Part shown: positions 28,759 to 58,273 of the stretch, one piece after another
Layout: each line of letters begins with the position of its first letter
How positions within the stretch are numbered: the stretch's first letter is position 1
Source: Arthrobacter sp. KBS0703
Lineage (GTDB): Bacteria > Actinomycetota > Actinomycetes > Actinomycetales > Micrococcaceae
Length of the DNA stretch: 64,000 nucleotides
NCBI RefSeq assembly: GCF_002008315.2
Contig: NZ_MVDG02000001.1
Span: forward strand, 186,001-250,000
Direction of reading: 5' to 3'
Notes under the pieces: model-generated
The model's input: the letters and a program-made list of their open reading frames with translations, nothing else
Database searches by the model: none
What the model was told of the DNA's origin: nothing
Made by a program: the position numbers and the translations under genes

Positions 28759-30024
28759 ATGCCCAAACCAGTGGATAACCAATTGACCGACGCCGGCACC
28801 GAAGCGGAGCAGCCCGAACTGCGCCGCCGCCGCTCCCGCCGCCGCGATGGTGACGGCTCCGACGACTGGACAGGAATGTTTCCCGCCGTGACACCCGACA
28901 CCACTTCAGCGCCCGTCCTCCCGCTCCGGAGCTCGTCCTGGGCGGAGGCCGCAGCCGCGGCGGATGCCGTCTCCGACGCGCCTCCCGCTCCGCCGGCCCT
29001 GTCTCTTATACACATCTAGATGTGTATAAGAGACAGCCGGGGGGGGCACCGCCCGGCGTACGCTCCGGAAACTGCGCGCGAACCTGACGCGCCCGTGGCG
29101 GACCACACGGCTCTGCCGACGTCGTTCGTCCGCGAACAGAAGCCCAGGCCCAAGGGCGGATTTCGCGGCTTCCTGTACCGGGCGACCGGTGGCGCCTGGA
29201 ACCTGGGCCCCAGCGCACAGGAACGCGAGGAAGACGAGCTGGCACGGCGCATCTCCCGCCAGCTGCAGGGCAGCTTCAACACCGCCGTGCTGAGCCTCAA
29301 GGGCGGCATCGGCAAGACCTCCACCACAGTCGGTGTGGGCCTGACGCTGGCCGAGTTCCGCGGCGACCCGCCGTGCGCCATCGACGCCAACCCGGACTCC
29401 GGCGACCTCGTGGAGCGCGCACTGGGCGAGGGCATCTACCAGCAGGCCACTCCGAGGACCATCACCGACCTGCTCAAGAATATCGACTCGATCGACTCCC
29501 TCACGGGGCTGTCCCGCTACATGCACCACTCCGGCCGGCTGCACCTCATCGCCGGCGAGCAGGACCCCGAGGTCTCCGACTCCCTGACGGCCGAGGAGTA
29601 CCTGCGGATCCGCAAGGTCATCTCCGCCTACTACTCCGTGGCCCTGACTGACTGCGGCACCGGGGTAACCCACAACGCGATGAGCGGGATCCTGCAGTCG
29701 GCGGACAACCTGATCATCGCCGCCGGCTACGCGGTGAGCGGCGCCAAGCGCGCCCGCAGCACCCTGCAGTGGCTGGCCAGCCACGGGTACGAGGACCTGG
29801 CCCGCAACGCGATCGTGGTGATCACCGACAAGGACGAGGTCTCCAGCCGCGTGGACAAGGACGCGATCGAGGACCACCTCGCCGGCATGTGTCGGCAGCT
29901 CATCGCCGTGCCGCACGACAGGGGGGTGGCCGACGGGGACCTGGTGACCCTGGACGTGCTGAAGCCGGAGACCCGGCGCGCGTACAAAGAGATTGCTGCG
30001 GCGGTTGTGGACGGGTACAGGTAG
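28759..30024 (+). CDS. MinD/ParA-like ATPase, interrupted in this assembly by adapter sequence
   Basis: The first 80 residues (ATG 28759, GGGGGA ribosome site) are charged and disordered (RRRRSRRRDGDG). The ATPase domain follows after 29140. It has the deviant Walker A LKGGIGKTSTTVGVG, a DANPDSGDL segment like the SIMIBI Walker A' Asp, LTDCGTG in the Walker B position and NLIIAAGYAVSGAKRA. Related ATPases occur beside ESX-type and conjugation-like secretion genes, but none of those genes is present here. The adapter at 28999-29036 introduces an in-frame TAG, so as written the frame splits into 28759-29019 and a downstream part. The native gene is almost certainly intact. Confidence 0.8.
28999..29036. 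other. Nextera mate-pair junction adapter (artefact)
   Basis: Positions 28999-29036 are an exact 38-base palindrome made of the 19-base Tn5 mosaic end joined to its reverse complement, head to head. This is the junction adapter of Nextera mate-pair libraries, not a native transposon. It interrupts the MinD/ParA-like gene. Confidence 0.95.
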
Positions 30025-30117
30025 CGAGTTTCCCTAACGGTGATCAAGGGCAGCCGGCACTGATGCGTATTGAACGTTGTCGGCACGTGATCGTAGGGAC
30101 TGGATCTATTCTGGGTG

Positions 30118-32208
30118 CTATGGCTTCAGCACGCCTTGACGTTCCAATGCCTCCCTGATCACCGGGCCAAGACGTTCCGCATACGCTGCCGTCATGTGTG
30201 CTTGGTCCAGCTTTGTGGGGGTGCTTCCTACGAAGCTGGGGCAGGCCTGATCGGCGCAAAACCAAGGAAGGGTGTCTATGAACACGCCCTTCTCCCAAGT
30301 CGGGGCGATTATTTTCTCTTCGGTGCCCCATGTTGCTGGAACGGTGCTGACGCAGTCAGACGGGTGGCTCACTTTCGTGTAGCAGGATGCGATGTCCTTA
30401 TCAACGGGCGGTCCCGGCATGAACACAAGCTGGGGAGCCGCCGTGATTTTTTGTATTTCCTCATCGGCGCTTGCGAATATGCCAGAGAACACGATTACGT
30501 CAGGGTCGATTCGATTGATGGCTGATACGGCTTCTTCGGCTCTTCCTTGACAGCCTTCAGGCATCGGCTTTATTTTCGCTACGTCGGCCGCGCCACCGAA
30601 TGGGCATCCGAACATGCCATAGGAGACAAGGTTCCAGTCAGAGTCCGTCCCTATTGCCGACCTTAAGGCCGCTACGTAGGTCATGCTGATCGAGCTGCCA
30701 ACCGTGACTATGGTGTGTTTTGCATTCGGATCTCCCCAGGTGCATGAACTCTCTTCGACCTTGTGAAGGCCACAGGGCATGATATCTTCGGGCGCTTGAG
30801 GACCGGCTATCACCTCCTCGAGCGTCGGCGATAGTTCCGGCCAGGCAGCCGCGGCGAGTGACGTCTTTATTGCAGCCTGTAGGGAGGCCAGCTTAGGAGG
30901 AGAATCGGCAACGGTTGCCTTCGTTCCTGCAACCGGCGGCAACTCCACAGTCGTCGGCGCCGCTGCCGCATTCTGTTGGGGTGTAGGTGGAACCAGTGCC
31001 AGTGCCACCGTGGCGGAAGTGACAAGAGCCAGCAAGCTAAGGGCCGTCAACTGGTAACTAAATGAGGGCGCGCCCGAGCTATTTCGCTGTTTGTTGCGTG
31101 CGGGAGTTAACCAGGTTGACCGTCTTATGGGGTCTTCAACGAGGTGAAAAGAGTAGATGGCAGCCAGCGTAAAGATTGCCGCGCAAATCACTTGCTGCAG
31201 CCAAGTCGTCTCGAACACCGCAGAATAGAGGATGATCACCGGAAAGTGCCATAAATACAGCGAGTACGAAATCTTGCCAATGTACTGGGAAATCGGGTTC
31301 GTCAGTACACCAAGGGATAGGTGCCCGCCAGTTCCCGCGACTATTACCGCCGCCGTTGAAATCACAGGTAGGGCAGCCCATGGCGCTGGGAATGCAACGG
31401 TGTCGCTGATAACGAACAAGGAAGCGCATATGCCACCGAGACCTAGGTAACCTAGCGCGGGACGAATAGCGAATGGTAGCCGACTCAAAGCACCGGCATA
31501 GACCGCGATTAAGCCACCGATTCCTAGCTCCCATGCGCGTGAAAACGTTGAAAAGTACGCCCAAGTGGGATTAGTTGCGGTCTCAACGGATGCCCACGCG
31601 AATGTTGTAATCGTTAGGGCGGCGAGGGTGATTCCAACCGCTTTGCGGGCCGTGGCTTTGGACCAGCCATTGCGGCGGCCAAGAAGGAATGTTCCGAGCA
31701 TCAGCCATGGCCATACAAAGTAGAACTGCTCTTCAACTGCGAGGGACCAGAAATGCTGAAGGGGAGACTCGGGACCGGAAGCCTCGAAATAGTTTGTTCC
31801 CGACGCCGCGTAATGCCAGTTCGCGGCAAAGAAAAATGCCCAGACACTGTCTGCAAGAGTGGAGTAGAAGCGGCTCGAATTAAAAAGTAGCCACGAGGCG
31901 ATGACTGTGGCCAGCAAGACGAGCGTTGCTGCCGGCGCAATTCTGCGGATCCTGTTGCGGTAGAACCCCATGAACGAGATGGAACCTGTTTTCTCGTGTT
32001 CACGTACTAGTAGGCCCGTGATGAGGAATCCTGAGATCACGAAGAAAACGTCGACTCCTACGAATCCACCTGACGGCCAACCGAAAAGGTGATCTAGTAT
32101 TACGGCAACAACGGCTAACATTCTGAGCCCTTGAATATCTCGCCGGAACGGGGGTGGCGACGCCCGTTTCGGTGTGACCCGCTCACGTTGAGACTTCGTT
32201 AAGGTCAT
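30118..32208 (-). CDS. Acyltransferase-3 membrane protein with C-terminal SGNH domain (OafA-like)
   Basis: About 696 residues from the ATG at 32208 (AATGGGGGAAGC upstream). The N-terminal 370 residues form the ten-helix acyltransferase-3 domain, with RDIQGLRMLAVVAVILDH carrying the conserved His and a VFFVISGFLITGLL segment. The C-terminal 230 residues are an extracytoplasmic SGNH-type domain with Gly-Ser in TVGSSISMTYV and a DxxH block in LDQAHMT. Fused proteins of this kind O-acetylate cell-surface glycans. It may decorate the EPS made by the cluster at 1-19 kb; that link is inferred. Confidence 0.92.
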   Translation of the reverse strand: MTLTKSQRERVTPKRASPPPFRRDIQGLRMLAVVAVILDHLFGWPSGGFVGVDVFFVISGFLITGLLVREHEKTGSISFMGFYRNRIRRIAPAATLVLLATVIASWLLFNSSRFYSTLADSVWAFFFAANWHYAASGTNYFEASGPESPLQHFWSLAVEEQFYFVWPWLMLGTFLLGRRNGWSKATARKAVGITLAALTITTFAWASVETATNPTWAYFSTFSRAWELGIGGLIAVYAGALSRLPFAIRPALGYLGLGGICASLFVISDTVAFPAPWAALPVISTAAVIVAGTGGHLSLGVLTNPISQYIGKISYSLYLWHFPVIILYSAVFETTWLQQVICAAIFTLAAIYSFHLVEDPIRRSTWLTPARNKQRNSSGAPSFSYQLTALSLLALVTSATVALALVPPTPQQNAAAAPTTVELPPVAGTKATVADSPPKLASLQAAIKTSLAAAAWPELSPTLEEVIAGPQAPEDIMPCGLHKVEESSCTWGDPNAKHTIVTVGSSISMTYVAALRSAIGTDSDWNLVSYGMFGCPFGGAADVAKIKPMPEGCQGRAEEAVSAINRIDPDVIVFSGIFASADEEIQKITAAPQLVFMPGPPVDKDIASCYTKVSHPSDCVSTVPATWGTEEKIIAPTWEKGVFIDTLPWFCADQACPSFVGSTPTKLDQAHMTAAYAERLGPVIREALERQGVLKP

Positions 32209-32846
32209 GCTTCCCCCATTTACACCATGATTGACATCGTAAGGGTAGTCTGCAAGGATGTGGTCTCCCAAATCGGGAGGCCTTACATGTCGGGCCGAAA
32301 CATATGTACTGCCCCAGGTGGGGTCTCTCCACGTTATCTCCCCGGCTTGGAGCGCTGCGGCCACCGTTTTGTCAGGTGGCGACAGACGCACGAGCTCTCT
32401 TGGACTTTGCCAAGACGTGATGTCGCGAGGCTTGATTGTCCGTGATGGAAGTCAAGATAGCTGGGCTCCCCACGATTTTGGTCGCGGTCTGAACAAGAGG
32501 GTGCGGTGCAACCGAAAACTGGGACATCGGCATGGCAACAATCCCTATGAATTCTGCGCGATACACGCACATCGGCGCTCCAAGGACATTGCTGGCGCTG
32601 GATGCGATCGATAAGCGCGCCGCCCGTTAGGTGCCTCCAGTTCGTCGCCGTGTCGCACGACTGGGAAGCGGCCACAGCGGCCTATTGGCCTTGGAACGAG
32701 TTGAGGCCGGCGACCCCGCGGCGATTGCCGACGCATGCCGGTAAGTGTTCCAGGCGTTGCGGGCCAGGCGAGTCGCGACCGTTTTCCCGGAGTGCTCAGG
32801 CACAGGTAGGATTCGAGCAAAATAGAATCTTGGACATGGGGGAGCC
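32209..32846. other. Divergent intergenic region between two acyltransferase genes
   Basis: This stretch of about 640 bases holds only short frames without family features. The promoters for both flanking acyltransferase genes should lie here. No repeat, tRNA or hairpin of note was seen. Confidence 0.45.
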
Positions 32847-34046
32847 GTGGTTGAAACCACCGCTATAACAAAGACTGAAGCAGTACGTCTCGACGGAGTG
32901 AACGTGCCGCTGGACGTATTGCGAGCAATCGCAGCGCTCGCCGTAGTCTTGCAGCACGTTCGAACGCTGGTGATGATGGATTTCGACGACGTCGCACATA
33001 ACCCCATGCAGAGTGTGCTGTACGGTGTTTCTGCCCTCGGCCACCAAGCAGTTGTCCTGTTCTTCGTTCTCAGTGGCTTCTGGGTTGGCGGCAGTTTGAT
33101 CCGCAGCGTGCAGCGGAACACCTTTCGCTGGAGCGGGTACATGGTCAACCGGATCACTCGGCTGGGTATCGTTCTCATGCCGGCTCTGGTTCTGACCATG
33201 GTCTTGGACCTTATCGGGCGACATTACTTCGGCGACATGAGCACGTATAGGGGAGATCTGAGGTATGGGGGAGTTGCCTTGGACCAGCGGCCCATCGACG
33301 CAGGGACGTTTCTAGGGAATGCCGTTTTTTTGATGGCGATTAAGGTTCCCACCTATGGGACGAACACGGCCTTATGGTCGTTGTCTTTCGAATTCTGGAT
33401 GTATGTTCTGGCGCCGTTGGTTCTCTTCGGGGTGTACTTTTGGACGCGATCCAAATATGCCCTGATTTACACTGCCGGTGCGCTTGCTGTGGCCATGTTA
33501 ATCGGACCTCGGGCTGTGTCGTACGTGCCGCTGTGGATGTTGGGGGCGGTGGTGGCAGCCTTCGGTCCGCGCCTGATTGGCGTCCTGAACTCTTGGTCCA
33601 ACCGGAGGGTCGCTACCGCACGAGTGCTGACGGGCGGCCTCACCTTGGTGGCGTCCATGGTTGTCCGCGGGCTGAATTCCCTTCCCGAGATGGTCGGGGA
33701 TCTTATTGTTGCCGTACCTGCAGCTGCCTTCATCGCAACCTTGCTGACCGGCCTCCTTGGACGGGGACTCTTCGCACGGTTGCTGACGCGATTTTCTTCG
33801 TTGGCACACAGTTCGTACTCCCTGTACGCAATCCACCTCCCCATTGCCTTCCTCGTTGTGTCCGTATTTGGTGTACAGGTGGACAGCAGGTGGCCGTCTG
33901 ACCCAGTTCACTGGGTCTACATGCTCGCGATCATCGTCGGCATCGTCGCAGCAGCCTGGCTGTTCGCCCAAGTGACAGAACGTCACACGACCAGGGCCCG
34001 CAAATACGTTTCAGACAGGCTCCACGCAAGTTCCCTGCAACGCTAG
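32847..34046 (+). CDS. Acyltransferase-3 family membrane protein
   Basis: This 399-residue protein has about ten transmembrane helices. The signature N terminus is VPLDVLRAIAALAVVLQHVR, with the conserved His, followed by VLFFVLSGFWVGGSL. TALWSLSFEFWMYVLAPL matches the conserved WSLSxE block. No SGNH domain is attached. The start is the GTG at 32847 with GGGGGAG just upstream. Acyltransferase-3 proteins transfer acyl groups to surface sugars or other exported products; the substrate is unknown. Confidence 0.92.
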   Translation: MVETTAITKTEAVRLDGVNVPLDVLRAIAALAVVLQHVRTLVMMDFDDVAHNPMQSVLYGVSALGHQAVVLFFVLSGFWVGGSLIRSVQRNTFRWSGYMVNRITRLGIVLMPALVLTMVLDLIGRHYFGDMSTYRGDLRYGGVALDQRPIDAGTFLGNAVFLMAIKVPTYGTNTALWSLSFEFWMYVLAPLVLFGVYFWTRSKYALIYTAGALAVAMLIGPRAVSYVPLWMLGAVVAAFGPRLIGVLNSWSNRRVATARVLTGGLTLVASMVVRGLNSLPEMVGDLIVAVPAAAFIATLLTGLLGRGLFARLLTRFSSLAHSSYSLYAIHLPIAFLVVSVFGVQVDSRWPSDPVHWVYMLAIIVGIVAAAWLFAQVTERHTTRARKYVSDRLHASSLQR

Positions 34047-34955
34047 TTCCGACTCTTGACGCTCAGCCCGTCACTTCTGTGTTCGACGTCGGCGTGGAGA
34101 TTGAATGAACCACGTACGCCATCCGGGTCGCGAATGATGACGCACCGACGCGATGCTTCTGGGGCCAGACGACCCCCGTGTCGATAGAGGTGTTGGTAGC
34201 CCTGGCCGTCGCGGCTACATCCAGAAGCCTGCGTCGCTTGGACGCTGAGTGTCTAGCAGCCGCCCGGCGGCTGCTACTGCCTCATTGTCTTGTACAGACC
34301 CGTGATGTCGATGACTTGAATGTTGTCGGAGTCGCCCAGCGTTTTGATGGTGTTTGCATAGGTCGAGACCAAGCCGGGCCGAGGGGATGTGTGCGGTTGC
34401 GCGTTCGTAAAATAACTTCGCCCGCCGCCTTGAGAATCGTGGTTAGCCCCTGAATCGTGAGCCACGGACAGATGTGGCATCCAGACAGTGTGCCTGTTTT
34501 GGCGTTGCCTCTGTTAATGCACTGATGTGGACCTGCCATCCGTGTCGATCGGTCCAGCAGCCTGGCAGGGGACGAGCCCTTGCAGAGCGCGTAACGGCAA
34601 ACCTGGCGCGCTCAGGGGCGCCGATCAATACTAATGGGCCGCATTCCGCCTACAGGGGCTGTCCCTCGGCAGACCTTCGTCCCAGCTGAGGCTTCTGTGG
34701 TGCCGGAAGCCCCGCGGATTGACATCGGTCTGGGCGAGCCGTCGCCACGCCGATTAATTCTTGACGAAACCTTGACGGATTCCGGCATGGAGTCCTGAGC
34801 CAGTTGCCGCAATGTTCTAAGCAATAGGCCCAGGGGAGAGCCGAAGTCTCGTGCTTTCGAAATCCGGTGATCTTCCTCGGCTCCAGCCACAGCGAGGGGA
34901 CACGTCGTGAGCATCTCGATTCCACAAGTCTCCGGACAGCTGCGCGGGGTGTCCG
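34047..34955. other. Stretch of about 900 bases without an intact gene
   Basis: No full-length gene is visible. A minus-strand frame at 34274-34480 ends in a peptide resembling the tail of an SGNH-type esterase. Other short frames look like out-of-frame high-GC DNA. Its right part must contain the promoter of the signal peptidase-like gene. Confidence 0.5.
34274..34480 (-). pseudogene. Possible remnant of an SGNH esterase-like gene
   Basis: The frame ends with STYANTIKTLGDSDNIQVIDI followed by TGLYKTMRQ. This resembles the segment of SGNH-type esterases that precedes the active-site His block (pattern YA..A..L....I.VID). The upstream half has no clear family match and no catalytic motifs are present. 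The similarity is short, so confidence is low. Confidence 0.25.
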
Positions 34956-35624
34956 GTGGCTGAGCCTAAAGCCTCGCCGCCAGCCGGGGACTCCTTCGCG
35001 CCGAAGGCCGCAGGAGTACCGCGGCCGCAGTTCGGCATGGACACGGGCGGCCAACGTGGCAGCCGCCGCCCCGCCGAGGTGGCCGAGAAACGCGGCGAGT
35101 CCGGGCCGGGGGCGGCCGGCGGCGTGGCCGGCCTGCTGCTGATGTTACTGATCTTCGCCGCGCTGGCTCTGGTGATCGTTCCGCAGGCCACCGGATACCG
35201 GACCTACACCGTGTCCACCAACTCCATGGCGCCCAAGTACCCTGCCGGAACGTTCCTGACGGTGAAACCGGTGGCATTCAGCGAACTGAGATCCGGCGAC
35301 GTCGTCACCTTCCAGCCGAACCCGGACCGGCCGGACGTCGAAACACAGCGGATCGTCGGGTTCGGTATCACACAGTCCGGCGAGAAAACCCTGATCACCA
35401 GGGGCGACAACAACGGCGTCACCTCCCCGGCACCCGTCCACCCGAGCCAGGTGAAGGGGAAGCTGTTCTACGCGGTGCCGTTTGCCGGCTACCTCGCGGA
35501 CAACCTGGGGCACGCGGACCGCGAGCTCTGGATGACCGTGGCCGCCGCCGGCCTGATCGGCTTCGGCGCGCTGTTCATCTTCCGGGCCCTCCGCCGCCGT
35601 CACCGGGCCGCAGGCCGAGGCTGA
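34956..35624 (+). CDS. Signal peptidase I-like (S26) membrane protein with an unusual active site
   Basis: This 222-residue protein has a Pro/Gly-rich N-terminal cytoplasmic tail of about 55 residues and a helix near 57-82 (GVAGLLLMLLIFAALALVIV). An S26 peptidase domain follows and a C-terminal helix lies near 190-210. The nucleophile Ser lies in STNSMAPKYPAGTFL, and GDVVTFQP and ITRGDNN fit the SipW/archaeal-type group. The position that usually holds the general base (His in HRI or Lys in KRV) is Gln in ETQRIVGF, so it may be inactive or use another residue. The start is a GTG at 34956 and could lie further upstream. Confidence 0.8.
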   Translation: MAEPKASPPAGDSFAPKAAGVPRPQFGMDTGGQRGSRRPAEVAEKRGESGPGAAGGVAGLLLMLLIFAALALVIVPQATGYRTYTVSTNSMAPKYPAGTFLTVKPVAFSELRSGDVVTFQPNPDRPDVETQRIVGFGITQSGEKTLITRGDNNGVTSPAPVHPSQVKGKLFYAVPFAGYLADNLGHADRELWMTVAAAGLIGFGALFIFRALRRRHRAAGRG

Positions 35625-35669
35625 CCTCCCGGCTCCCGGCTCCCGGGCCGCCGTCGTTGTCCGTCTCAT
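35613..35669 (+). repeat. 3'-flank sequence similar to that at 38742-38788
   Basis: GAGGCTGACC, CCCGGCTCCCGG, CCGCCGTCGT and CCGTCT occur in the same order here and at 38742-38788, with two small insertions. This copy lies just after the signal peptidase-like stop codon and contains short G/C inverted repeats. The shared sequence may be a duplicated terminator-like element. Confidence 0.5.
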
Positions 35670-35714
35670 TGCCTTGTATGATGGGCGGTCACCGCCGTCT
35701 CACAGGGAGGAAGG

Positions 35715-36815
35715 ATGGACGATAAGCCCACGCGGCTGGATTCGCTGACAGGATTGCGGTTTCTGGCCGCCATACTCGTGGTCTCGTATCATGCGTCCGT
35801 GACGCTGGTGCCGGAGATGTTCCCGCTCGTGTCCGTGGGGCAGACCGGTGTGACGTTCTTTTTTGTACTTTCCGGATTCGTGCTCGCCTGGTCCATGAAG
35901 CCAAACACTCCCAAAGCGCAGTTCTACTGGCGCCGGTTCGCCCGAGTGTGGCCGCTGCATGCGCTCACCCTGGTTGCTGCGGTGGTGCTGAACCAGGCCA
36001 CCCAGGGGGAGCAGTCCGTTCCCCGGTTCATTGCCGCGCTTCTCCTCCTACAGTCCTGGCACGCGGACCCGACCTGGGTCTATGCGTACAACGGGGTGTC
36101 CTGGTCGCTTTCCTGTGAAGCCTTTTTCTATGCGGTGTTCCCGTTCCTGGCCGTGTGGCTTTCGCGTTTTCGAGCGAAACGACTCCTTCCTATTTGCGTG
36201 TTGGTTTTCGTGGCCGCGGCCCTCCTGTCGGCACTGCTCCCGTTGGTCCCGGCGTTCGATTGGGGAGCGCTGCTGTACACGTTCCCGGCATACCGGGTGT
36301 CAGAGTTCGTTGTGGGTGTGTGCCTGGCCATGGCGTTCCGGAAAGGCTGGAAGCCCAGGTTCGGTGTGTGGGTCGGAGCGGCCGCAGCCGTCGGTCCGGT
36401 CCTCCTGCTCGAAGTCGTCGCCGCCAACGTCCCGTGGCACATCGCGCCGGCGCTGGCGAGCACGCTCTGCATGCCAGGCTTCGCCCTGCTCATCGCGGCC
36501 TTCGCCCACCGTGACTGCACCGGAGGCCGCCGCACCTTCGCCAGTTCTCCCGCCATGGTGAGGCTGGGCGAATGGTCGTTCGCCCTCTACCTGGTTCACG
36601 AGCTCGTGCTGCGCACAGCCCTGGAACTCGGCCCGGTGACCCTTGGCGAACGCGCGGCCTTCGCCGCCGCCGGCGTTGCCGTATCCATCATGCTATCCGC
36701 GCTCCTCTTCACACTCTTTGAACGCCCCATTGAGGCGCGGTTGAGGGGCATGTTCCTGCGTGGCGGCCCCGCGCCGAACAGCCCTCAGCCCGAGGAAAGT
36801 CTGGTGGCGAAGTAG
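35715..36815 (+). CDS. Acyltransferase-3 family membrane protein
   Basis: This 366-residue protein has about ten helices. It begins TRLDSLTGLRFLAAILVVSYHA, with the conserved His, and carries VTFFFVLSGFVLAW and WSLSCEAFFYAVFP (WSxSxE block). GGGAGGAAGG precedes the ATG. It is a stand-alone enzyme without an SGNH domain and the third acyltransferase-3 gene within 7 kb. Its low similarity to the other two suggests different substrates. It ends facing the HPt-like gene. Confidence 0.92.
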   Translation: MDDKPTRLDSLTGLRFLAAILVVSYHASVTLVPEMFPLVSVGQTGVTFFFVLSGFVLAWSMKPNTPKAQFYWRRFARVWPLHALTLVAAVVLNQATQGEQSVPRFIAALLLLQSWHADPTWVYAYNGVSWSLSCEAFFYAVFPFLAVWLSRFRAKRLLPICVLVFVAAALLSALLPLVPAFDWGALLYTFPAYRVSEFVVGVCLAMAFRKGWKPRFGVWVGAAAAVGPVLLLEVVAANVPWHIAPALASTLCMPGFALLIAAFAHRDCTGGRRTFASSPAMVRLGEWSFALYLVHELVLRTALELGPVTLGERAAFAAAGVAVSIMLSALLFTLFERPIEARLRGMFLRGGPAPNSPQPEESLVAK

Positions 36816-36886
36816 CCTGATCAGGACTGTTCCGGGGCGGCGAGGGCTCCGGCGATCCTCCGCCAGTGCCGGGCTTGGACCCGCGG

Positions 36887-37285
36887 TCACGGCTGCTTGC
36901 GCTTTGAGTCCTCCAGGTCCTGCCAGCCTCGGAGGAATTCCTCGAGCGCCCGTGTCAGCGGCAGGCAGTCTTTGGCTACTTCGCCCGCGGACCGGGCCGC
37001 GGCAGCGAAATCTCCGCTGCGCAAATTCGCTTCCAGGGTGCGGCAGTCCCGTTCCATCGCCAGGCCGCCGACCATGTGGGCACGGACTCTGAGGCTGAGC
37101 ACTGCGTCAAGGGCCGCGGGGATGTCCTGCTCGCGTACGGCGGAAAGGATCCGCCCGACCCGTTCCGGCAGCAGGCGCAGGAACATGGCGGCGTAGCTGA
37201 TTGCGACCGCGTCGCTTTCGACGTCCTCAGCGAGCCGAAGCAGCCGGGAGGAGGAGAACACGAGTCCATTGCCTTCAAGTGCCAT
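36887..37285 (-). CDS. HPt-like helical protein, copy 1
   Basis: This 132-residue, all-helical, cytoplasmic protein without a signal peptide is a close paralogue of the protein at 44954-45352. Both start MAL.GNG.VFSSSRLLRLAEDVESDA. The central helix LSLRVRAHMVGGLAMERDCRTLE resembles the phosphorylatable helix of histidine phosphotransfer domains, with His in AHMVGG, although the usual HxLKG is altered. No kinase or response regulator gene is nearby, so it is an orphan. Its upstream region (37302-37394) is shared with the SipW-like operon at 47.4 kb. The HPt assignment is probable, not certain. Confidence 0.6.
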   Translation of the reverse strand: MALEGNGLVFSSSRLLRLAEDVESDAVAISYAAMFLRLLPERVGRILSAVREQDIPAALDAVLSLRVRAHMVGGLAMERDCRTLEANLRSGDFAAAARSAGEVAKDCLPLTRALEEFLRGWQDLEDSKRKQP

Positions 37286-37301
37286 AGTCTTTCCGTTCGA
37301 T

Positions 37302-37394
37302 GTGGAACAGGACCAACAATGCCCGGGGCCCCTCAGGAAAGAGTCCGCTTCAGGTCAATAAGGGATCAGCAGTTGATCAAGGATTGATCAAGAC
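37302..37394 (-). promoter_or_regulatory. Conserved leader/operator region upstream of HPt-like copy 1
   Basis: This segment matches 47401-47493 without a gap and with about a dozen mismatches. It contains two perfect TTGATCAA palindromes at 37373-37380 and 37384-37391, one helical turn (11 bp) apart. A GCCCGGGGC palindrome lies nearer the gene. On the minus strand TTGACC occurs within the shared part. I read it as a promoter with a tandem operator, inferred from conservation. Confidence 0.5.
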
Positions 37395-37556
37395 AGGACG
37401 GCGAGCAGTGTCTCATCGGACCTTGAAAAGGAGGCTGGGAATCGTTGCCCGGGGAGGCCTATGCTGGTGCCAGCCGTCGGGGCCTCTGAACTCCGAAGAT
37501 TCCTTATGCGGGTGTTTGCCGACGGCTGCCGGACAGGTCCGTGAGAGAAGGACACG

Positions 37557-38708: not shown

Positions 38709-38732
38709 CGGGATTGGTTGAGCGCATGGGGT

Positions 38733-38764
38733 GCCGGGCGGCAGGCTGAGGCTGACCGCCCGGC
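38733..38764 (+). terminator. G/C hairpin after the phosphoesterase gene
   Basis: GCCGGGCGG (38733-38741) pairs with CCGCCCGGC (38756-38764) over a 14-base loop, about 25 bases past the stop codon at 38706-38708. No T-run follows. Part of it lies in the sequence shared with 35613-35669. Confidence 0.5.
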
Positions 38765-48172: not shown

Positions 48173-48368
48173 GATTGATCTGCCTTCCGCCGGTGGGGGA
48201 ATGACTCTTGCGCTAAGTGTGCGGCATTCCGGACTCCGGGGGAAGACCCGGAGTTGACTCATAAAAAAGCTCCGCGGAGGCCGATACGTTGCCTCATTGG
48301 AAAATCTCCGGATGGGCAGGGTTGCCGGGGCCCTGGTAGCAGCGTGATTGTTGTGGATGGGACTGACC

Positions 48369-49156: not shown

Positions 49157-49365
49157 CTGGCGAGTGGCCGAACGGGACCTCGTGATCGTGAACGTACCGA
49201 GGCCGGATGCACGCAAGGTGTCCAAGTTGACGGCCGCTGCAGTCCTGCGCGTTCGGTAATTGAAGGTTGAAGTTGTGACTACAATTCAATCTGGACGCGG
49301 GGGACGCGGCCTCCACCGCGTTTCGACTCCTCTCTGGTCGACGCACGACCAAAAGGACGGCCCGA

Positions 49366-52300
49366 TTGTCTAACCCGCCGCGAGCTCGATACTTCAGATA
49401 TGTAGCTACTGCCGCCGTTGCCGCCTTGGTCGGCGGAAGTCTGTTCGCACATCCGGCCGTCGCTGATGACTCAGCTTTGCCGGCCGTCCCGATGTCTCCG
49501 GCTGTCTCGAATTCCCCGACGGATCAGGTTATCGTCCAGTTCAGAGATCGAGCGCGCGTAAGTGCTGTAGAGCGTGGCCGCTCGTTTGCCGCCGCGGGTG
49601 CGAAGATCGGCGCCAATCTCAAGGACGTGCGAGCGACTTCTGCCGGGGCACGTATTGTTCGGGCTGAGCGAAAGCTCACCGCTGACGAGACCTCGAAGCT
49701 CTTGGCGACTTTCCGCGCAGACCCGGACATTGCCTCCGCGGAACCCGATCTCATTATGAGACCAATGTCCGTGTCCACTTCCAACGACACTTTTTACCCT
49801 CTCCAATGGGATTTTTTTGAATCGCAGGGCGGCATGAGAGTGCCGGCAGCATGGTCGGTCAGCAAGGGCAAGGGCGTCGTAGTGGCTGTCGTTGACACTG
49901 GCATAACCAGCCACAGCGATCTCAACGCCAACGTTCTGCCGGGTTACGACATGATCTCGAGCTCAGGCGCAGCCCGTGATGGCGACGGACGTGATGCCGA
50001 CCCACGAGACGAGGGCGATTGGACCGGGGCTGATCAATGCTTCTACGGGGACGGAGGTGGACAGTCGTCTTGGCACGGCACACACGTCGCCGGAACTGTC
50101 GCAGCTGTCACGGACAATAATCAGGGTGTCGCCGGTGTTGCACCGGAAGCGAAGATTCTGCCGATGAGGGCCCTCGGGGCCTGTGGTGGCTACTCGTCAG
50201 ACATCGCTGACGCTATTATTTGGGCTGCAGGAGGCTCAGTGTCAGGGACCCCTAGCAACGCAAACCCAGCCCGAGTGATCAACCTCAGTCTTGGTGGCAG
50301 CGGTGCCTGCTCAAGCACCTACCAGTCGGCTATTGATCTGGCTACCTCACGAGGGGCTGCCATCGTTGTCGCCGCGGGAAACGAAAACCGACCAGCCTCT
50401 GAATCAAGCCCCGCGAACTGCCAAAACGTCATCACCGTCGGCGCCAGCACTCGTAACGCACTCCGCGCGCCGTACTCCAACTACGGTCCAGCGGTCGATG
50501 TGGTGGCGCCAGGCGGAGACATGAGCTGGAACGCAGCAAACGGCATCGCTTCGACACTGAACGATGGAGCGACCAGTCTCGGCGAGGAAGCCTATTTCTA
50601 CTCACAGGGCACCTCGATGGCTGCTCCTCACGTTGCTGGTGTTGCTGCCATGCTGGTATCCAAACTTGGAGACATTGCGACACCCGCATACATTGAAGAG
50701 CGTTTGAAAACGACCGCTCGTCCTGTCCCCACTCTCTGTGGCGATATTTGCGAGAGCAGATATATTGTCGATGCAGCTGCTGCCGTGGGCCTTGAAGATG
50801 GCAGTCCAATTCCTACGCCTGCGCCGGATACCGCCGGCCCCGTTATGGTGAGTTCTTCGGTAAGCCCCTTGTCGGATAATTTGGATGACGGGCCGGCCGA
50901 AATTACGGTCACTTTGGCGCTGACCGACCAAACGGGCGTTGAGGCACCTTTCGTTTTGTTGGGCAATGATGCCACGGGACAGAGTCAGGGTTTCGGGTCG
51001 ATGTCCCTGGTTTCGGGAAGCCCTAAAGACGGTACGTGGCAGCGCACGATGACAATTCCTCAGGGGTCTGCCACGGGCGCCTGGAACGTCACGCTCTACC
51101 CGCTGAAGGACACCCTGGGCAATGGCTCTTCGGGCTTCCAATCTTTGGGAACGGGGTCCATCACCGGGGCCCCGTCCGACACGGCCGGCCCCGTTATGGT
51201 GAGTTCTTCGGTAAGCCCCTTGTCGCATAATTTGGATGACGGGCCGGCCGAAATTACGGTCACTTTGGCGCTGACCGACCAAACGGGCGTTGAGGCACCT
51301 TTCGTTTTGTTGGGCAATGATGCCACGGGACAGAGTCAGGGTTTCGGGTCGATGTCCCTGGTTTCGGGAAGCCCTAAAGACGGTACGTGGCAGCGCACGA
51401 TGACAATTCCTCAGGGGTCTGCCACGGGCGCCTGGAACGTCACGCTCTACCCGCTGAAGGACACCCTGGGCAATGGCTCTTCGGGCTTCCAATCTTTGGG
51501 AACGGTGTCCATCACCGGGGCCCCGTCCGACACGGCCGGCCCCGTTATGGTGAGTTCTTCGGTAAGCCCCTTGTCGCATAATTTGGATGACGGGCCGGCC
51601 GAAATTACGGTCACTTTGGCGCTGACCGACCAAACGGGCGTTGAGGCACCTTTCGTTTTGTTGGGCAATGATGCCACGGGACAGAGTCAGGGTTTCGGGT
51701 CGATGTCCCTGGTTTCGGGAAGCCCTAAAGACGGTACGTGGCAGCGCACGATGACAATTCCTCAGGGGTCTGCCACGGGCGCCTGGAACGTCACGCTCTA
51801 CCCGCTGAAGGACACCCTCGGCAATGGCTCCACTGGGTTCCAGAGCCTGGGGAACGTCAACATCACCAGCACCACCACCGTGGAGCCGACGGCTGTGGTG
51901 TTCTCGGATAAGGACGGCACTGCTGAGGACGCGTACACGGTTCCGGCGACGGACGGTGTGGAGTACCTGGTCGGGAACAAGATGGTGCCGGCCGGGACGT
52001 ATCCGGGCACCGGTGAAGTGACGGTTGCCGCGAGGGCGAAGGCTGACTACGTTCTCAAGTCCGGCGCGGTCGCGTCGTGGACTTTCACGTTCAAGGCGAC
52101 GCCGTTTCAAGTGTCACCGAAGGCGGTGGTGTTCACGGACAATTACGGCACGACGACGGACACGTACACAATTCCGGCGACTGAGGGCGTTGAGTATCTG
52201 CTTGGTGACACGGTCGTTGCGGCCGGAGCGTACAAGGGGTCGGGCACGGTGACCGTAACCGCGAAAACGAAACCGAACTATGTTTTGACCGACGGTGCTG

Positions 52301-53169
52301 CGGCGTCGTGGACATTTGCGTTCAAGACGACGCCGCACGAAGTGACCCCCGCTGCGGTGGTGTTCACGGACAAGGACGGCACCGCGCAGGACACCTACGC
52401 TGTCCCAGCCACCGAGGGAGTGGACTACTTTGTGGGCGGAAAGGTCGTGGCCGCCGGTACATACGCCGCGGGTGGCACCATCACTGTTACTGCCAAGGCC
52501 ACGCCGGACTACGTTCTCAAAGCCAACACCGCATCGTCCTGGTCAACGACTTTCAAAGCCACATTCCGGTTTACTTCCGTGGTGGGAACGGGCGACCTCA
52601 ACGGCGATAGGAAGCCGGACGTTTTGGTGCTGGATAGCGGCGGAGCGTTGTGGCTGTATCCGGGCAACGCTCGCGGCGGCTGGTTGGCCCGGGTGAAAGT
52701 CGGCTCGGGCTGGAACGGTTTTACGGCCGTGGTCGGTCCCGGCGACATGAACGGCGACGGGAAAGCCGATGTGCTGGCCCGTGACTCCGGCGGGACGTTG
52801 TGGCTGTATCCGGGCAACGGTCGCGGCGGCTGGTTGGCCCGGGTGAAAGTCGGCTCGGGCTGGAACGGGTTTACCGCCGTCGTCGGGCCCGGCGACATGA
52901 ACGGCGACCGTAAAGCTGACATTCTCGCCCGCGATGGCAACGGAGCATTGTGGCTGTACCGCGGGAATGGCCGCGGTGGCTTCCTGCCGCGGATCAGCGC
53001 AGGCGTCGGCTGGAACGGGATGACGTCCATTGTTGCTGCCCGGGACTTCAACGGCGACGGCAGGAATGACGTCCTCGCTGTGGACACCGGCGGAGCTCTC
53101 TGGCTGTACCGGGGGAACGGCGCCGGCGGCTGGCTTGGCCGTGTCCTGGTGGGATCGGGCTGGAACTGA
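49366..53169 (+). CDS. Large secreted subtilisin-like (S8) protease with tandem repeats and FG-GAP domains
   Basis: This 1267-residue protein has a signal peptide (residues 1-34) and an I9-like propeptide (about 45-130, DQVIVQFRDRARVS). The S8 domain carries catalytic Asp in VAVVDTGITSHSDL, His in SSWHGTHVAGTVAA and Ser in SQGTSMAAPHVAGVA. Three almost identical 117-residue beta modules follow (DNA repeat 50833-51885), then three 77-residue modules (51895-52590). Four FG-GAP/VCBS-like repeats of about 49 residues (DxNGDxxxDV) end the protein. It is secreted without an anchor, and the C-terminal modules probably bind a surface or polymer. A second, damaged homologue lies at 54664-56853. Confidence 0.93.
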   Translation: MSNPPRARYFRYVATAAVAALVGGSLFAHPAVADDSALPAVPMSPAVSNSPTDQVIVQFRDRARVSAVERGRSFAAAGAKIGANLKDVRATSAGARIVRAERKLTADETSKLLATFRADPDIASAEPDLIMRPMSVSTSNDTFYPLQWDFFESQGGMRVPAAWSVSKGKGVVVAVVDTGITSHSDLNANVLPGYDMISSSGAARDGDGRDADPRDEGDWTGADQCFYGDGGGQSSWHGTHVAGTVAAVTDNNQGVAGVAPEAKILPMRALGACGGYSSDIADAIIWAAGGSVSGTPSNANPARVINLSLGGSGACSSTYQSAIDLATSRGAAIVVAAGNENRPASESSPANCQNVITVGASTRNALRAPYSNYGPAVDVVAPGGDMSWNAANGIASTLNDGATSLGEEAYFYSQGTSMAAPHVAGVAAMLVSKLGDIATPAYIEERLKTTARPVPTLCGDICESRYIVDAAAAVGLEDGSPIPTPAPDTAGPVMVSSSVSPLSDNLDDGPAEITVTLALTDQTGVEAPFVLLGNDATGQSQGFGSMSLVSGSPKDGTWQRTMTIPQGSATGAWNVTLYPLKDTLGNGSSGFQSLGTGSITGAPSDTAGPVMVSSSVSPLSHNLDDGPAEITVTLALTDQTGVEAPFVLLGNDATGQSQGFGSMSLVSGSPKDGTWQRTMTIPQGSATGAWNVTLYPLKDTLGNGSSGFQSLGTVSITGAPSDTAGPVMVSSSVSPLSHNLDDGPAEITVTLALTDQTGVEAPFVLLGNDATGQSQGFGSMSLVSGSPKDGTWQRTMTIPQGSATGAWNVTLYPLKDTLGNGSTGFQSLGNVNITSTTTVEPTAVVFSDKDGTAEDAYTVPATDGVEYLVGNKMVPAGTYPGTGEVTVAARAKADYVLKSGAVASWTFTFKATPFQVSPKAVVFTDNYGTTTDTYTIPATEGVEYLLGDTVVAAGAYKGSGTVTVTAKTKPNYVLTDGAAASWTFAFKTTPHEVTPAAVVFTDKDGTAQDTYAVPATEGVDYFVGGKVVAAGTYAAGGTITVTAKATPDYVLKANTASSWSTTFKATFRFTSVVGTGDLNGDRKPDVLVLDSGGALWLYPGNARGGWLARVKVGSGWNGFTAVVGPGDMNGDGKADVLARDSGGTLWLYPGNGRGGWLARVKVGSGWNGFTAVVGPGDMNGDRKADILARDGNGALWLYRGNGRGGFLPRISAGVGWNGMTSIVAARDFNGDGRNDVLAVDTGGALWLYRGNGAGGWLGRVLVGSGWN
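50833..51885 (+). repeat. Three tandem 351-bp repeats within the subtilase gene
   Basis: Units start at 50833, 51184 and 51535, with a period of 351 bp (117 codons). They are nearly identical at the DNA level, including third codon positions, except for the last 60 bases of unit 3. This means recent duplication or ongoing gene conversion. Confidence 0.92.
51895..52590 (+). repeat. Three tandem 231-bp repeats within the subtilase gene
   Basis: Units begin with GTGGTGTTC at 51895, 52126 and 52357, period 231 bp (77 codons). Each encodes VVF.D..GT..D.Y..PAT.GV.Y followed by VTAKA.P.YVL. The copies differ at many sites, so this array is older than the 351-bp array. Confidence 0.85.
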
Positions 53170-53201
53170 CCTTCGCGCAGACAGGACGTCGGCGTCACGG
53201 G

Positions 53202-53233
53202 ACGGCCGCTGCATGGACACACGTGGCGGCCGT
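53202..53233 (+). terminator. Hairpin after the subtilase gene
   Basis: ACGGCCGC (53202-53209) pairs with GCGGCCGT (53226-53233), followed by a pyrimidine-rich TCCTCTCCT. It lies about 35 bases past the stop codon. Confidence 0.5.
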
Positions 53234-53299
53234 TCCTCTCCTAGCGTCTAGCGGCAAGTGAAGTCAGTCAGTTCCATCCGGTCGGGAACCCCGGATGCG

Positions 53300-53971
53300 T
53301 TAGCTGACGTCAATGATCAGCGGCATGTGGTCGCTGTGCGGAAGCCATCCGTCAGGCTCACCCACAGCCACCTTCGCGTCAATCGCAGAAGAGACGAACG
53401 CGTAGTCGATGTGATGCCCGAATTTCAGGTTCCGGGTATGGAAATACGTCTTTGTCAGTTCGCTACCGTGGGCGGCCTTCTCCTGGCGGTGGAAGACACT
53501 GTCGAGTCCGAGGCCGGCCAGCTTGTCGACGAGCATGGAATGGTTCCTGCCCGGGTGCGCGCCGTCCCAGATGGTGTTGCTGTTGAAGTCGCCGACGATC
53601 AGGCCTCGTCCTGAACCCAGAAAACCGGCGTGCCGGTCGACGATTTCGTGCGTAACCCTGACGTAGCGAAGCTCGCGTGTCAGCTGGTGGGCCCACAAGC
53701 CAATGATGTTCAGACCGTCCACGCTGAAAGGGACGTGCCACGGCAGAGCCGGGTCGCTCGGTTCAGTGACTTTGTAGCTAGCGGAGCGCAGTCCGATGAC
53801 ACCGAGACCCTTGTTTGGGTTGGAACCAACCCAAGCCGCGAAGGGGTAGTCACTGCTTTCGATGTCCTTTTTCGAGACTTCCTGGACTATGGCGACATCC
53901 GGCAACAGCGCCTCGAGCAGGTGGCGCTTCTTGTAGAAGGCCATCGAGCAGTTCCAGGAGACGATACGCAT
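53300..53971 (-). CDS. Endonuclease/exonuclease/phosphatase (EEP) fold protein
   Basis: About 223 residues from the ATG at 53971. It has the EEP landmarks: MRIVSWNCSM at the N terminus (Asn), VAIVQEVSKKD with the metal-binding Glu, LIVGDFNSNTIWDG with Asp/Asn, and the C-terminal HIDYAFVSS and PHSDHMPLIID with the catalytic Asp-His pair. There is no signal peptide, so it is cytoplasmic. The substrate could be nucleic acid or a phosphoester. It lies between the two subtilase genes on the opposite strand. Confidence 0.88.
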   Translation of the reverse strand: MRIVSWNCSMAFYKKRHLLEALLPDVAIVQEVSKKDIESSDYPFAAWVGSNPNKGLGVIGLRSASYKVTEPSDPALPWHVPFSVDGLNIIGLWAHQLTRELRYVRVTHEIVDRHAGFLGSGRGLIVGDFNSNTIWDGAHPGRNHSMLVDKLAGLGLDSVFHRQEKAAHGSELTKTYFHTRNLKFGHHIDYAFVSSAIDAKVAVGEPDGWLPHSDHMPLIIDVS

Positions 53972-54063
53972 TAGCACCCTTAGTTTGTGGACTTGCTCCC
54001 GGAATCCTGTCGGTCGACTTCGTTGCCGTGGCTAAGATGAAGGGGCCTTGGCCGCGTTCCCGG

Positions 54064-54433
54064 TCAGCCTGCGGCGAGGGCAGCGTTGACGAGCTTGACC
54101 AGTTCCGGGGCGGAGGCTGCGGTGGCTGCTGCCACGGGCCCGGTTTTCACAGCCGCCGCAGCCAGGGTCCCCTGATCCCGGTGACGGTGACCAGGGCCTG
54201 CTTTTGACCCGTGGGCAGAGTCTGCACCATCAGTGCACTGTTCGACAGATCGGCCTGCACAGCGGCTCGAGCGGCTTCATCTCGCTGGTGATCTTCTGCC
54301 CTTGCACCTCGATGGTGAACTCCGAGCAGGTGCCCGCCGCCGCCTTGCTCTTCTCGAACTGGGCAGCCATCTCCGCAGCGTCCTTGACGGCGAACACCAT
54401 CACGACCGTTGCCGTCTTGGCCGCCGCCGCCAT
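54064..54433 (-). pseudogene. Small Ala-rich protein gene with two apparent single-base deletions
   Basis: Starting at the ATG at 54433 the frame reads AKTATVVMVFAVKDAAEMAA, EFTIEVQGQKITSEMKPLE, then breaks. Restoring one G after CTCGAG gives AAVQADLSNSALMVQTLPTG. Restoring one C before GGGATC then gives LAAAAVKTGPVAAAT and SAPELVKLVNAALAAG, ending in TGA at 54064. The total would be about 120 residues with sensible codon use throughout. Because both lesions are single-base losses in G/C runs and sit in an error-prone zone, I suspect consensus errors rather than decay. No family is recognised. Confidence 0.5.
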
Positions 54434-54663
54434 GCTTAGCCCCTTGGGTGGCGAGAATGCTGAGAGCCTACAACTCCGAAGCGCGGCCGTACCAGAGCGC
54501 CAGCTATCGTTTTTGCCCGGATGCCAGCAAAGCGCCGCCCCTATGGACTGCATCACAAAAAGTCACCCCCACCGGATACACTCGGTTCTGGACGCGGCGG
54601 GGGCCGCGCCTCTTTTCTGCGTCCCAGCCATCAGTGGCCAGGTCGCCGCACAGGATGGTCTCA

Positions 54664-56853
54664 ATGTCTCAGACGCCCCGCACTTACTTGTCCTCATTCC
54701 TGACCTCGGCTGGAGTTGCAGCCCTGGTTGCGGGCGCGCTGTTCGCGCCGCCTGCCTCGGCTGCGGACGATCCGGCCGTGCCGCCCGCGGTGCCGCGCCG
54801 GGCTTCGTCCCCCGCTCCGGTGACCACGGACCAGTTCATCGTTAAGTTCAAGGACGCCGCCGCAAAGGTCCCCGCGGAGCGGGCCAGGGCCTACGGCAAG
54901 GCCGCGGCCAGGCTCGGCGCCCCGGTCAAGGACCTCCGCGCCACCTCGAGCGGAGCCCGGGTGCTCAGGACCGACAAGAAGCTGGGAACCGCTGACGCGG
55001 CGAAGCTCCTGGCCTCGCTGCGGGCCGACCCCGCCGTGGCCTATGCCGAGCCCGACGCCCTGCTCCAGGCCAAGGCCGCCGACCCGAACGATACCTACTT
55101 CGAATTCCAGTGGAACCTGTCCGAACAGCCGGGCGGCATGCGCGTGACCCGGGCCTGGGACGTCACCCGGGGCAGCGGCGAAGTGGTGGCGGTGGTGGAC
55201 ACCGGCATCACCAGCCACGTTGACCTGGACGCCAATGTGCTGCCGGGCTACGACATGATCAACGATCCGGCCAATTCCCGCGACGGGGACGGGCGCGATC
55301 CCAACCCCAACGACGAAGGCGACTGGACCGACATCGGCCAGTGCGCCGACGGTACACCGCAAATGGCTTCGTCATGGCACGGCACCCACGTGGCCGGCAT
55401 CATCGGCGCCGTCGCCGGCAACGCAGAAGGCATCGCCGGGATTGCCCCGCAGGCCAAGATCCTGCCGGTGAGGGTGCTGGGCCCCTGTGGCGGCCGCACC
55501 TCCGACATCGCGGACGCCCTGGTCTGGGCATCGGGCGGCCACGTGGACGGCGTCCCGGACAATCCCAACCCGGCCCGGGTCATCAACCTCAGCCTCGGCG
55601 GCACGGAAGCCTGCTCGCAGGCTTTCCAGGACGCCATCAACACCGCCACCGGCAGGGGAGCGGCCGTGGTGACGGCCGCAGGCAATGAAAGCGTGCAGGC
55701 CGCCTCCTCCAGCCCCGGCAACTGCCAGAACGTCATCAACGTGGCCGCCAGCGGACCTGTCTCTTATACACATCTAGATGTGTATAAGAGACACTCACGG
55801 CCCCGGCGGCGACATGACGCCCCTCCCCGGCGGCACCGCCGACAGCGGCGTCCCGGGCGGCATCCTGTCCACGGGGAACGACGGCCCCACCACGCCCGGG
55901 CCGGAGGCCTACTACTTCGCCGAGGGCACCTCCGCGGCTGCCCCGCACGTATCCGCCGCAGCCGCGCTGCTCATGGCCCAGATGGGCCCGGGCACCACCC
56001 CGCCGCCGTCGAGGCACGCCTCAAGCGCACCGCCCGGCCGGTGCCCGGAGGCTGCCCGGCAGGTTGCGGGCAGGCCTGGCGGACGCCGCCGCCGCGGTGC
56101 TCCACATCACCATGGTGGTGGCCGCCGGTGACATGAACGGCGACGGAAGCCCGACGTCCTGGCCCGCGACAACGGCGGTGTGCTGTGGCTATACCAGGGC
56201 AACGGCCGCGGCGGCTGGCTGGGGCGGATCCAGGCGGGCAACGGCTGGAACGGCATGACTTCGATCGTCGGCGCCGGGGACATGAACGGCGACGGCCGGA
56301 ACGACGTGCTGGCCCGTGACGGGTCCGGCGCACTGTGGCTGTACCAGGGCAACGGCCGCGGCGGCTGGCTGGGGCGGACCCAGGCGGGCAACGGCTGGAA
56401 CGCGATGACCGCCGTTGTCGGTCCCGGCGACATGAACAGCGACGGCCGGAACGACGTGCTGGCCCGCGACACCGCCGGCGTGCTGTGGCTCTACCGGGCA
56501 ACGGCCGCGGCGGCTGGCTGGCACGCGTGAAGGCGGGATCCGGCTGGAACGCGATGACCGCCGTCGTGGGTTCCGGCGACATGAACGGTGACCGGAAAGC
56601 CGACGTCCTGGCCCGCGATACCGACGGCGTGCTCTGGCTCTACCCGGGCAACGGCCGCGGCGGCTGGCAGGCACGGACGAAGGCCGGCACCGGCTGGAAC
56701 ACCATGACCACAATCACCGGCCGCGGCGACTTCAACGGCGACGCCAGGAACGACGTCCTCGCCGTCGACACCGCCGGCGCGCTGTGGCTCTACAAGGGCA
56801 GCGGCAACGGCGGCTGGCTCGGCCGCGTCCAGGCGGGAAGCGGCTGGAACTGA
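54664..56853 (+). pseudogene. Second secreted subtilase with FG-GAP repeats, broken here by an adapter and apparent deletions
   Basis: The reading from the ATG at 54664 has a signal peptide, an I9-like propeptide (DQFIVKFKDAAAKVPAE) and an S8 domain. Catalytic Asp is in VAVVDTGITSHVDLD, His in SSWHGTHVAGIIGA and Ser in AEGTSAAAPHVSAAA. After the adapter at 55757-55793 the frame shifts. It then shifts again near 56005, 56065, 56145 and 56495, each time by one lost base. Following the shifts gives at least four clean FG-GAP repeats ending at 56853. About 17 residues expected before the APGGDM block by comparison with the 49.4-kb paralogue are missing at the adapter. The native gene is probably intact, without the 351-bp modules. 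Confidence 0.8.
55757..55793. other. Nextera mate-pair junction adapter (artefact), final base missing
   Basis: Two head-to-head Tn5 mosaic ends, 37 of 38 bases, lie inside the second subtilase gene. By comparison with the paralogue it replaces about 50 bases of real sequence. Confidence 0.95.
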
Positions 56854-56936
56854 CCCCTTTGGCCGGGCATCTCGACGAGGCGCGGGGCGTGGCCCGGTTG
56901 GCCGAATAGGCACCCGGTTACCGGCTAACAGGAAGC

Positions 56937-56975
56937 CGGACTGCCGTCCACGACGGCGGGCCGGCGTCCGTTTTT
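56937..56975. terminator. Hairpin with T-run between the subtilase and GH3 genes
   Basis: CGGAC (56937-56941) pairs with GTCCG (56966-56970), and inside it GCCGTC pairs with GACGGC (56943-56948 with 56952-56957). TTTTT follows at 56971-56975. It lies between convergent genes; the T-run serves the plus strand. Confidence 0.5.
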
Positions 56976-56986
56976 AGTCCCGCCCG

Positions 56987-58273
56987 TCAGTGCCCGGCCT
57001 TTACCGTCAACACTTTCAGTGCGGCGGCATTGACCTCGGCCGCGAAGGCGGGGTTGCGCTGCGCGAGCTGCAGCACCGCGGAGGACATGACCGGAATGTC
57101 CCGCGGGTTGGCACACAGCAGCATGGTTCCGCCGGCATGGATGAAGCCGGTGGCCCGGGCGCCCTTGGCCCACGGAGCCAGCTGCGCGGCGTTGCACAGG
57201 TCATCGGACAGGATGACCCCGGTGAAGTGGAGGTCTCCCCGAAGCATGGTCCGCATGATCACCGGCGACAGCGGGGCGATGTGCCCGGCGTCGATGCGGG
57301 TGTAATAGGCGCTGGACACCATGACCCAGCGCGCCCCCGCCTGGATGGCCGTCCGGAACGGCGACAGGTACGGATCTGTGCGCGTGGTGACGGTGTCGCG
57401 GACGTTGCGGCTGGTATCCGTGTTGAGGGTGACGCGGCCAAGGCCCGGGAAATGCTTGACCACAGGCGCGACGCCCGCCTGGCGCATGCCCGCAGCGAAG
57501 GCCCCGCCGTGGCTGGAGACCGTCTGCGGCGTGAATCCGTATTCGCGGCCGAAGAAGCCGATGGGCGCATTGTGCGGAGCGAACTGCGCGCTGGGGACGG
57601 TGTCCATGACCGGCGCCAGATTCACGTTGAGCCCGGCGGCGCGCAGCTGGTTTCCCCAGGCACGCGCGTTGGCCTGCAGCACCGCAGGTGCCTGCCTGCC
57701 CTGGGCCACCCCGGTCGGAATCACGGAGAAGCCCGGACCGCCGAGGACCTGGACGAAGCCGCCTTCCTGGTCGGTGGCGACAGCGAGCCGGATGCCCCCG
57801 GTGGTGGCCCTGTCTCTTATACACATCTAGATGTGTATAAGAGACAGCCTATGGACGACGGCGGCCGTGGCGCCGGTTCCCGCGCGGTTGTGCCCCGCCA
57901 GGTACACGCTGCCCACGTGGTACCTGGTGATATCGGACATGGTGTTGATGTCGGCTCCGGTGGCCGGAGCGGCCACCATGAACAGCTGGCCGACGCGCTG
58001 CGGCAGGGTCAGCCGGGCCAACTGCTGCGCGGGTGTCTCTTATACACATCTCGCAGGTGCCGCGGCGGTGGTGGCACGGGCCGGGGGTGTCAAGGCTGCC
58101 GGTGCAGCGGCGGAGGTGAAGAGGGCGGGAGTGACACGGGCGGGAGCGGCGATTTGGGTGCCGGGGGCCCGGCTCGAACGCTGGGCAGTTCCGGACGCGG
58201 GCGGCGGGGCGCACGACGCCAGGGCAAGCAGGAGCGAAGCTCCCAGAACCGAGAGTTTACTTAGGTCACGCAT
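56987..58273 (-). CDS. GH3 (NagZ-like) beta-N-acetylhexosaminidase lipoprotein, interrupted by adapter sequences
   Basis: The start at 58273 gives a lipoprotein signal peptide ending in LALASCAPPP, then a Pro/Ala-rich linker. The first half of the GH3 barrel begins LTLPQRVGQLFMVAAP. After the adapter at 57810-57847 the barrel continues with VATDQEGGFVQVL and the NagZ-type KHFPGLGRVTLNTDTS (catalytic His region). GVILSDDLCNAAQL supplies the nucleophile Asp region. Such enzymes remove N-acetylglucosamine from cell-wall fragments; the extracellular anchor fits wall recycling outside the membrane. Two adapters (58034-58051 and 57810-57847) break the frame, and a few residues are probably missing at each. 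Confidence 0.85.
57810..57847. other. Nextera mate-pair junction adapter (artefact)
   Basis: An exact 38-base head-to-head pair of Tn5 mosaic ends inside the GH3 gene. The coding frames on both sides belong to the same GH3 protein, so the locus is collinear but some native bases are lost. Confidence 0.95.
58034..58051. other. Single Tn5 mosaic-end (Nextera adapter) fragment (artefact)
   Basis: TGTCTCTTATACACATCT, 18 of the 19 mosaic-end bases, lies between the linker and the catalytic domain of the GH3 lipoprotein. It looks like untrimmed adapter read-through. Confidence 0.9.

Follow-up and report, generated by a model that had tools for sequence, protein, structure and literature searches.

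The window analysed here is a 64,000-nucleotide stretch of the Arthrobacter sp. KBS0703 genome (C1:186001-250000 of the assembly), and it contains copies of the Tn5 mosaic end at four sites within coding genes. The mosaic end was made in the laboratory by combining the two IS50 ends. The question at this locus is whether these sites are a mobile element, real mutations, or marks left by library preparation and assembly. Our answer is that they are almost certainly scars of the Nextera mate-pair junction adapter, likely left by gap-closing joins, rather than a mobile element or genuine mutations.

Queried with the 19-mer mosaic end, CTGTCTCTTATACACATCT, the window has seven matches at up to three mismatches, all of them at the four sites listed in Table 1; at the same threshold there are none in 100 dinucleotide-preserving shuffles of the window. 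Site 1 consists of CTGTCTCTTATACACATCT at 28999-29017 (+) and again at 29018-29036 (-), forming an exact 38-bp palindrome, and site 3 has the same arrangement (57810-57828, +; 57829-57847, -). Site 2 pairs a copy at 55757-55775 (+) with one at 55776-55794 (-) that is mismatched at its outer base, so that the matching dimer is 37 bp long, and site 4 is a single copy at 58033-58051 (+) with a mismatch at its first base, leaving a match of 18 bp. In each dimer the arms abut, with 0 bases between them. An earlier sequence-only reading, made without database searches, had placed mosaic ends of 38, 37, 38 and 18 bp at these positions, and the mismatch search and the shuffles confirm this.

Table 1. 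Mosaic-end sites in the window and the genes that they break (window coordinates; G028 is a relative).
Feature	Position	Strand	Remarks
Site 1, exact 38-bp mosaic-end dimer	28999..29036	.	TAG in frame, ParA/MinD-like gene; G028 has 12 bases
Site 2, 37-bp dimer without last base	55757..55793	.	Subtilase frameshift, no immediate stop; G028 has 48 bases
Site 3, exact 38-bp dimer	57810..57847	.	TAG in frame, GH3 gene (-); G028 has 20 bases
Site 4, single 18-bp mosaic end	58034..58051	+	TAA in frame, GH3 gene (-)
ParA/MinD-like ATPase gene	28759..30024	+	tblastn; Pfam CbiA
Subtilase (Peptidase_S8) gene with FG-GAP repeats	54409..56850, start putative	+	tblastn, Pfam
Glycoside hydrolase family 3 (GH3) gene	56987..58297, start putative	-	Broken by sites 3 and 4; tblastn, Pfam

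Three genes are affected. When proteins of the relative G028, which served as the intact reference, are compared with the window by tblastn, each of the four sites is seen to be flanked by parts of one and the same gene, as the sequence-only reading had held. The ParA/MinD-like gene, whose Pfam CbiA match scores 25.0 bits (slightly below the 25.4 cut-off), stays in one frame on both sides of site 1; the adapter itself supplies the in-frame stop, and because of it the gene reads as two ORFs (28759-29019 and 29020-30024). The flank alignment to G028 at this site has one 1-base gap, with which the net difference would be 27. At site 2 the subtilase passes from frame 1 to frame 2, matching the prediction from the 11-base difference, and is read through without an immediate stop; the window ORF covers positions 1-180 of the 288-position profile, and the G028 protein, in which the FG-GAP repeats were detected by Pfam, covers 1-288. 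The GH3 gene keeps a single frame throughout. That the sites create false stops, also claimed earlier, is correct for sites 1 and 3 (TAG) and 4 (TAA) and incorrect for site 2, which causes a frameshift. The subtilase changes frame again (2 to 1) in overlapping tblastn pieces at window 56494-56527, where there is no mosaic end; this may reflect a further error in the consensus. Another repeat-containing subtilase-like gene, resembling the broken one at 54.4-56.9 kb, lies at window 49348-53166 (tblastn, G028 protein).

The window holds a small share of the adapter copies in the assembly, which comprises 4.86 Mb in 37 contigs and is rated 99.99% complete. A full-assembly search for the 19-bp end, which the sequence-only reading had proposed, finds 390 copies in forward and 382 in reverse orientation with no more than one mismatch, and the 38-base dimer occurs 251 times exactly and 321 times at up to one mismatch. 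The sampled region C1:1-400000 has 38 sites (30 dimers and 8 single ends), or about one per 10 kb; some of the sampled dimers are short of one to four bases at an end, and the region contains no N. Their 30-base flanks have a mean GC of 0.769 versus 0.662, a value reached by none of 2,000 random position sets. Clustering is modest, with 8 of 37 neighbours less than 600 bp apart versus 2.06 at random, and the largest of 2,000 random sets likewise reached 8.

Site density is uneven along the genome. Among the 100 of the 251 exact dimers that were listed, 67 fall within the first 1.053 Mb and the other 33 within the following 1.22 Mb, and the counts in further stretches of the genome were 3 sites (200 kb), 23 (120 kb) and 7 (80 kb). 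The region around C1 1.8-2.15 Mb is sparse, with 3 sites in 200 kb (one of ten stretches from 1.48 Mb) versus 38 in the first 400 kb, and its GC is lower. Very GC-rich 60-bp windows make up 0.99% of the sparse stretch near 1.8-2.1 Mb versus 2.17% of the first 400 kb; the dense stretches at 0.86-1.06 Mb are no richer in them (2.16%), yet contain twice the sites. The comparison is weak because the sparse and dense stretches were both picked by their density, and GC accounts for the unevenness in part at best. A dependence of site density on replication-linked read depth is not supported: the best DnaA match is at C1:3.956 Mb, far from the sparse stretch, which is closer to the presumed terminus, where the lowest depth would be expected.

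The dimer is absent at up to one mismatch from 98 relatives (60 of the same genus and 38 of the same order), and it is found in at least 120 stretches of species genomes, the 80 stretches listed belonging to 17 named genomes besides this one. The dimer-bearing genomes among the matches listed include Enterococcus, Collinsella, Ideonella, Scytonema, Streptomyces and Pseudomonas, and the same 38 bp are present in unrelated phyla; exact dimer counts in ten of the 17 genomes are 71, 29, 10, 13, 5, 5, 15, 1, 2 and 2. A 9-bp duplication occurs at 1 of 144 sites in these other genomes (counting sites flanked by 50 bases on each side). The flank GC excess there is +0.017 (sd 0.098; 78 of 144 sites positive), and as flanks elsewhere are hardly GC-richer, GC is no general cause. 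In two other species-genome stretches, L071 and L105, four dimers are grouped within about 500 and about 1,700 bases, respectively, which resembles the clustering seen here. In a plasmid collection the dimer is present in 5 of 72,556 records, all enterobacterial plasmids (NZ_CP032357.1, NZ_MT039157.1, NZ_KY978628.1, NZ_MF589339.1 and NZ_MF918372.1); NZ_KY978628.1 is titled as a complete sequence, and in NZ_MT039157.1 the dimer forms the final 38 bases of the record. By megablast it was not found in 20,395 E. coli records or 50,697 phage records.

The 19-mer has a documented source. An excerpt of PMC4675938 prints it as the 19-nt adapter of the Nextera mate-pair library, and PMC3928519 describes how the transposase puts a 19-bp adaptor on both ends of a long fragment, how circularisation joins the two adaptors, and how NextClip seeks either 19 adaptor bases or, for a forward/reverse pair, 38. 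The ordinary Nextera kit shares the 19-bp mosaic end, and according to an excerpt of PMC3906532 its read-through runs on into CCGAGCCCACGAGAC or GACGCTGCCGACGA; in PMC4605624 a different kit is used. The Nextera source named by the sequence-only reading is right as to the mosaic end, and is refined here to the mate-pair junction adapter, two 19-mers joined, rather than read-through, and extended to the whole genome.

We compared the flanks of the 38 sampled sites (C1:1-400000) with stretches of three relatives, G042, G059 and G028. Both flanks aligned at 18 sites, the other 20 giving no paired alignment. When each flank is represented by its highest-scoring match, 15 of the 18 are colinear within 100 bases, and random positions treated as a control gave 99 of 110 testable positions within that distance; choosing the nearest among several matches gives 16 of 18. 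At the non-colinear site 124138 the flanks are 877 bases apart with a long unaligned end, or 17 bases apart with another match. The two other non-colinear sites, 59254 and 59555, are neighbours whose outer flanks are colinear; the 263-bp piece between them (59292-59554) aligns over 70 bases only, elsewhere in G042.

Six sites have both flanks aligned to within 10 bases, and where the assembly has adapter inserts of 38, 37, 38, 38, 18 and 38 bases, the relatives carry 12, 48, 20, 7, 2 and 20. As a control for insert length, 200 random positions were handled in the same way with highest-scoring matches; 73 were equally well aligned, and 68 of these gave exactly 38 and none 20 or fewer, the remaining five being 188, 39, 29 and two on different strands. 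A first control, which picked the match nearest the expected length, gave 72 of 74, and the highest-scoring-match version is preferred. At the best-aligned sites, then, adapter bases replace native ones and the order is correct. A looser 60-base filter yields further sites with 206,605 (59254), 20, 97, -4 (320186) and 11 bases, with 81 of 93 controls reading 38; given the values of -4, 97 and 206,605, loss is not seen at every site. Across relatives, site 1 corresponds to 12, 134 and 188 bases, the latter two with long unaligned ends, and site 2 to 48 and 24 bases; at site 4 the first 72 bases of the right flank are unaligned. The statement in the sequence-only reading that the order is right and bases are lost or replaced is thus borne out at the six well-aligned sites and by the 15 colinear ones.

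Because the sequence is a transposon end and is present in hundreds of copies, the sites might be taken for a palindromic element, Tn5-derived or MITE-like, that has genuinely inserted into the chromosome, a reading that we find scarcely credible. No exact 9-bp target duplication is seen at any of the 38 sites in C1:1-400000 or, with fixed site edges, at any of 33 in further stretches of the same genome, and there is no sequence between the arms. All six well-aligned sites replace 2-48 native bases (the looser site 320186 reads -4), and the occurrence of an identical 38 bp in unrelated phyla and in none of the 98 relatives also argues against an element. For the natural IS50 ends, the closest fits in the window have 3 and 4 mismatches and lie at the mosaic end. 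A search of the genome for the Tn5 transposase family PF02281 gave no match, but neither did the control genomes, so this result does not count against an element. On the lack of target duplication, the missing native bases at well-aligned sites and the relatives, a real transposon or MITE is rejected.

The same library chemistry could have marked the genome in other ways. An untrimmed junction read is physically a chimera, judging from the excerpt of PMC3928519, and if such molecules had been assembled unchanged, flanks from places kilobases apart would be brought together; the three of 18 testable sites that are non-colinear by best match, and the pair 59254/59555 bracketing a piece that does not align in place, are what this would predict. 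It is nevertheless very unlikely, as the colinear fraction is close to the random rate, the 263-bp piece is single-copy in the assembly, and each of the four window sites sits within one gene; for the window, where the flanks are local, we reject plain chimeric junction reads. Even less probable is ordinary Nextera paired-end read-through, which would have the 19-bp mosaic end in common (an excerpt of PMC3906532): at 30 of the 38 sampled sites the end runs directly into its reverse complement, none of six single forward ends runs on into CCGAGCCCACGAGAC or GACGCTGCCGACGA as that excerpt leads one to expect, and the assembly contains no match to an 18-base piece of the TruSeq adapter. With no further adapter after the mosaic end at the sampled sites and no TruSeq match, read-through of either type is rejected. 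The library-artefact reading proposed from sequence alone is upheld by the exact adapter, its absence from the 98 relatives, its presence in unrelated assemblies, the lack of duplication and the replacement of native bases.

The mate-pair adapter scars most likely arose as follows. In a circularised mate-pair fragment the two 19-bp adaptors meet as a 38-bp perfect palindrome, and mate-pair reads crossing the junction may have been left unclipped. At small coverage gaps, on average GC-rich, a gap closer would extend both contig edges with unclipped reads up to the adapter, whose self-complementarity would then give a perfect overlap between the edges and cause them to be joined. Such a join would drop the native bases of the gap and substitute 17-38 adapter bases. 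A gap-closing join is proposed over an assembled chimera since the flanks are local, unlike those of raw junction reads. We infer the mate-pair library type, the gap-closing step and the software for this assembly. No published account of this gap-closing failure was found among the matches listed, as judged by title and the start of the abstract, and a literature search found no paper with the adapter-encoded peptide.

The sites are a technical artefact of a known kind and not a biological feature, and recognising them is useful for database hygiene. In the window the outcome is three false in-frame stops and one frameshift in ParA/MinD-like, subtilase and GH3 genes. With sites roughly every 10 kb across the sampled 400 kb, the damage may extend to many genes, despite the 99.99% completeness. 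Readers of the genome could be led to annotate false pseudogenes, truncated proteins or a repetitive palindromic element, and this assembly and similar ones should be flagged before surveys of gene loss, pseudogenes or mobile elements. On balance we lean towards the broader view that, in many species-representative genomes, genes have been silently disrupted through false overlap at the self-complementary 38-bp adapter in the gap-closing step; if so, one exact-match search could serve to count and flag such scars.

Among known systems, the sites are like the Nextera mate-pair junction adapter in both the 19-nt sequence and the 38-bp head-to-head pair. They differ from raw Nextera mate-pair junction reads, whose flanks derive from opposite ends of a long fragment, in that the flanks here are local at 15 of 18 testable sites. 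With the ends of Tn5/IS50 transposons they share the mosaic end, in which both IS50 ends are combined, but unlike those transposons they have no sequence between the arms, no 9-bp duplication and no cargo.
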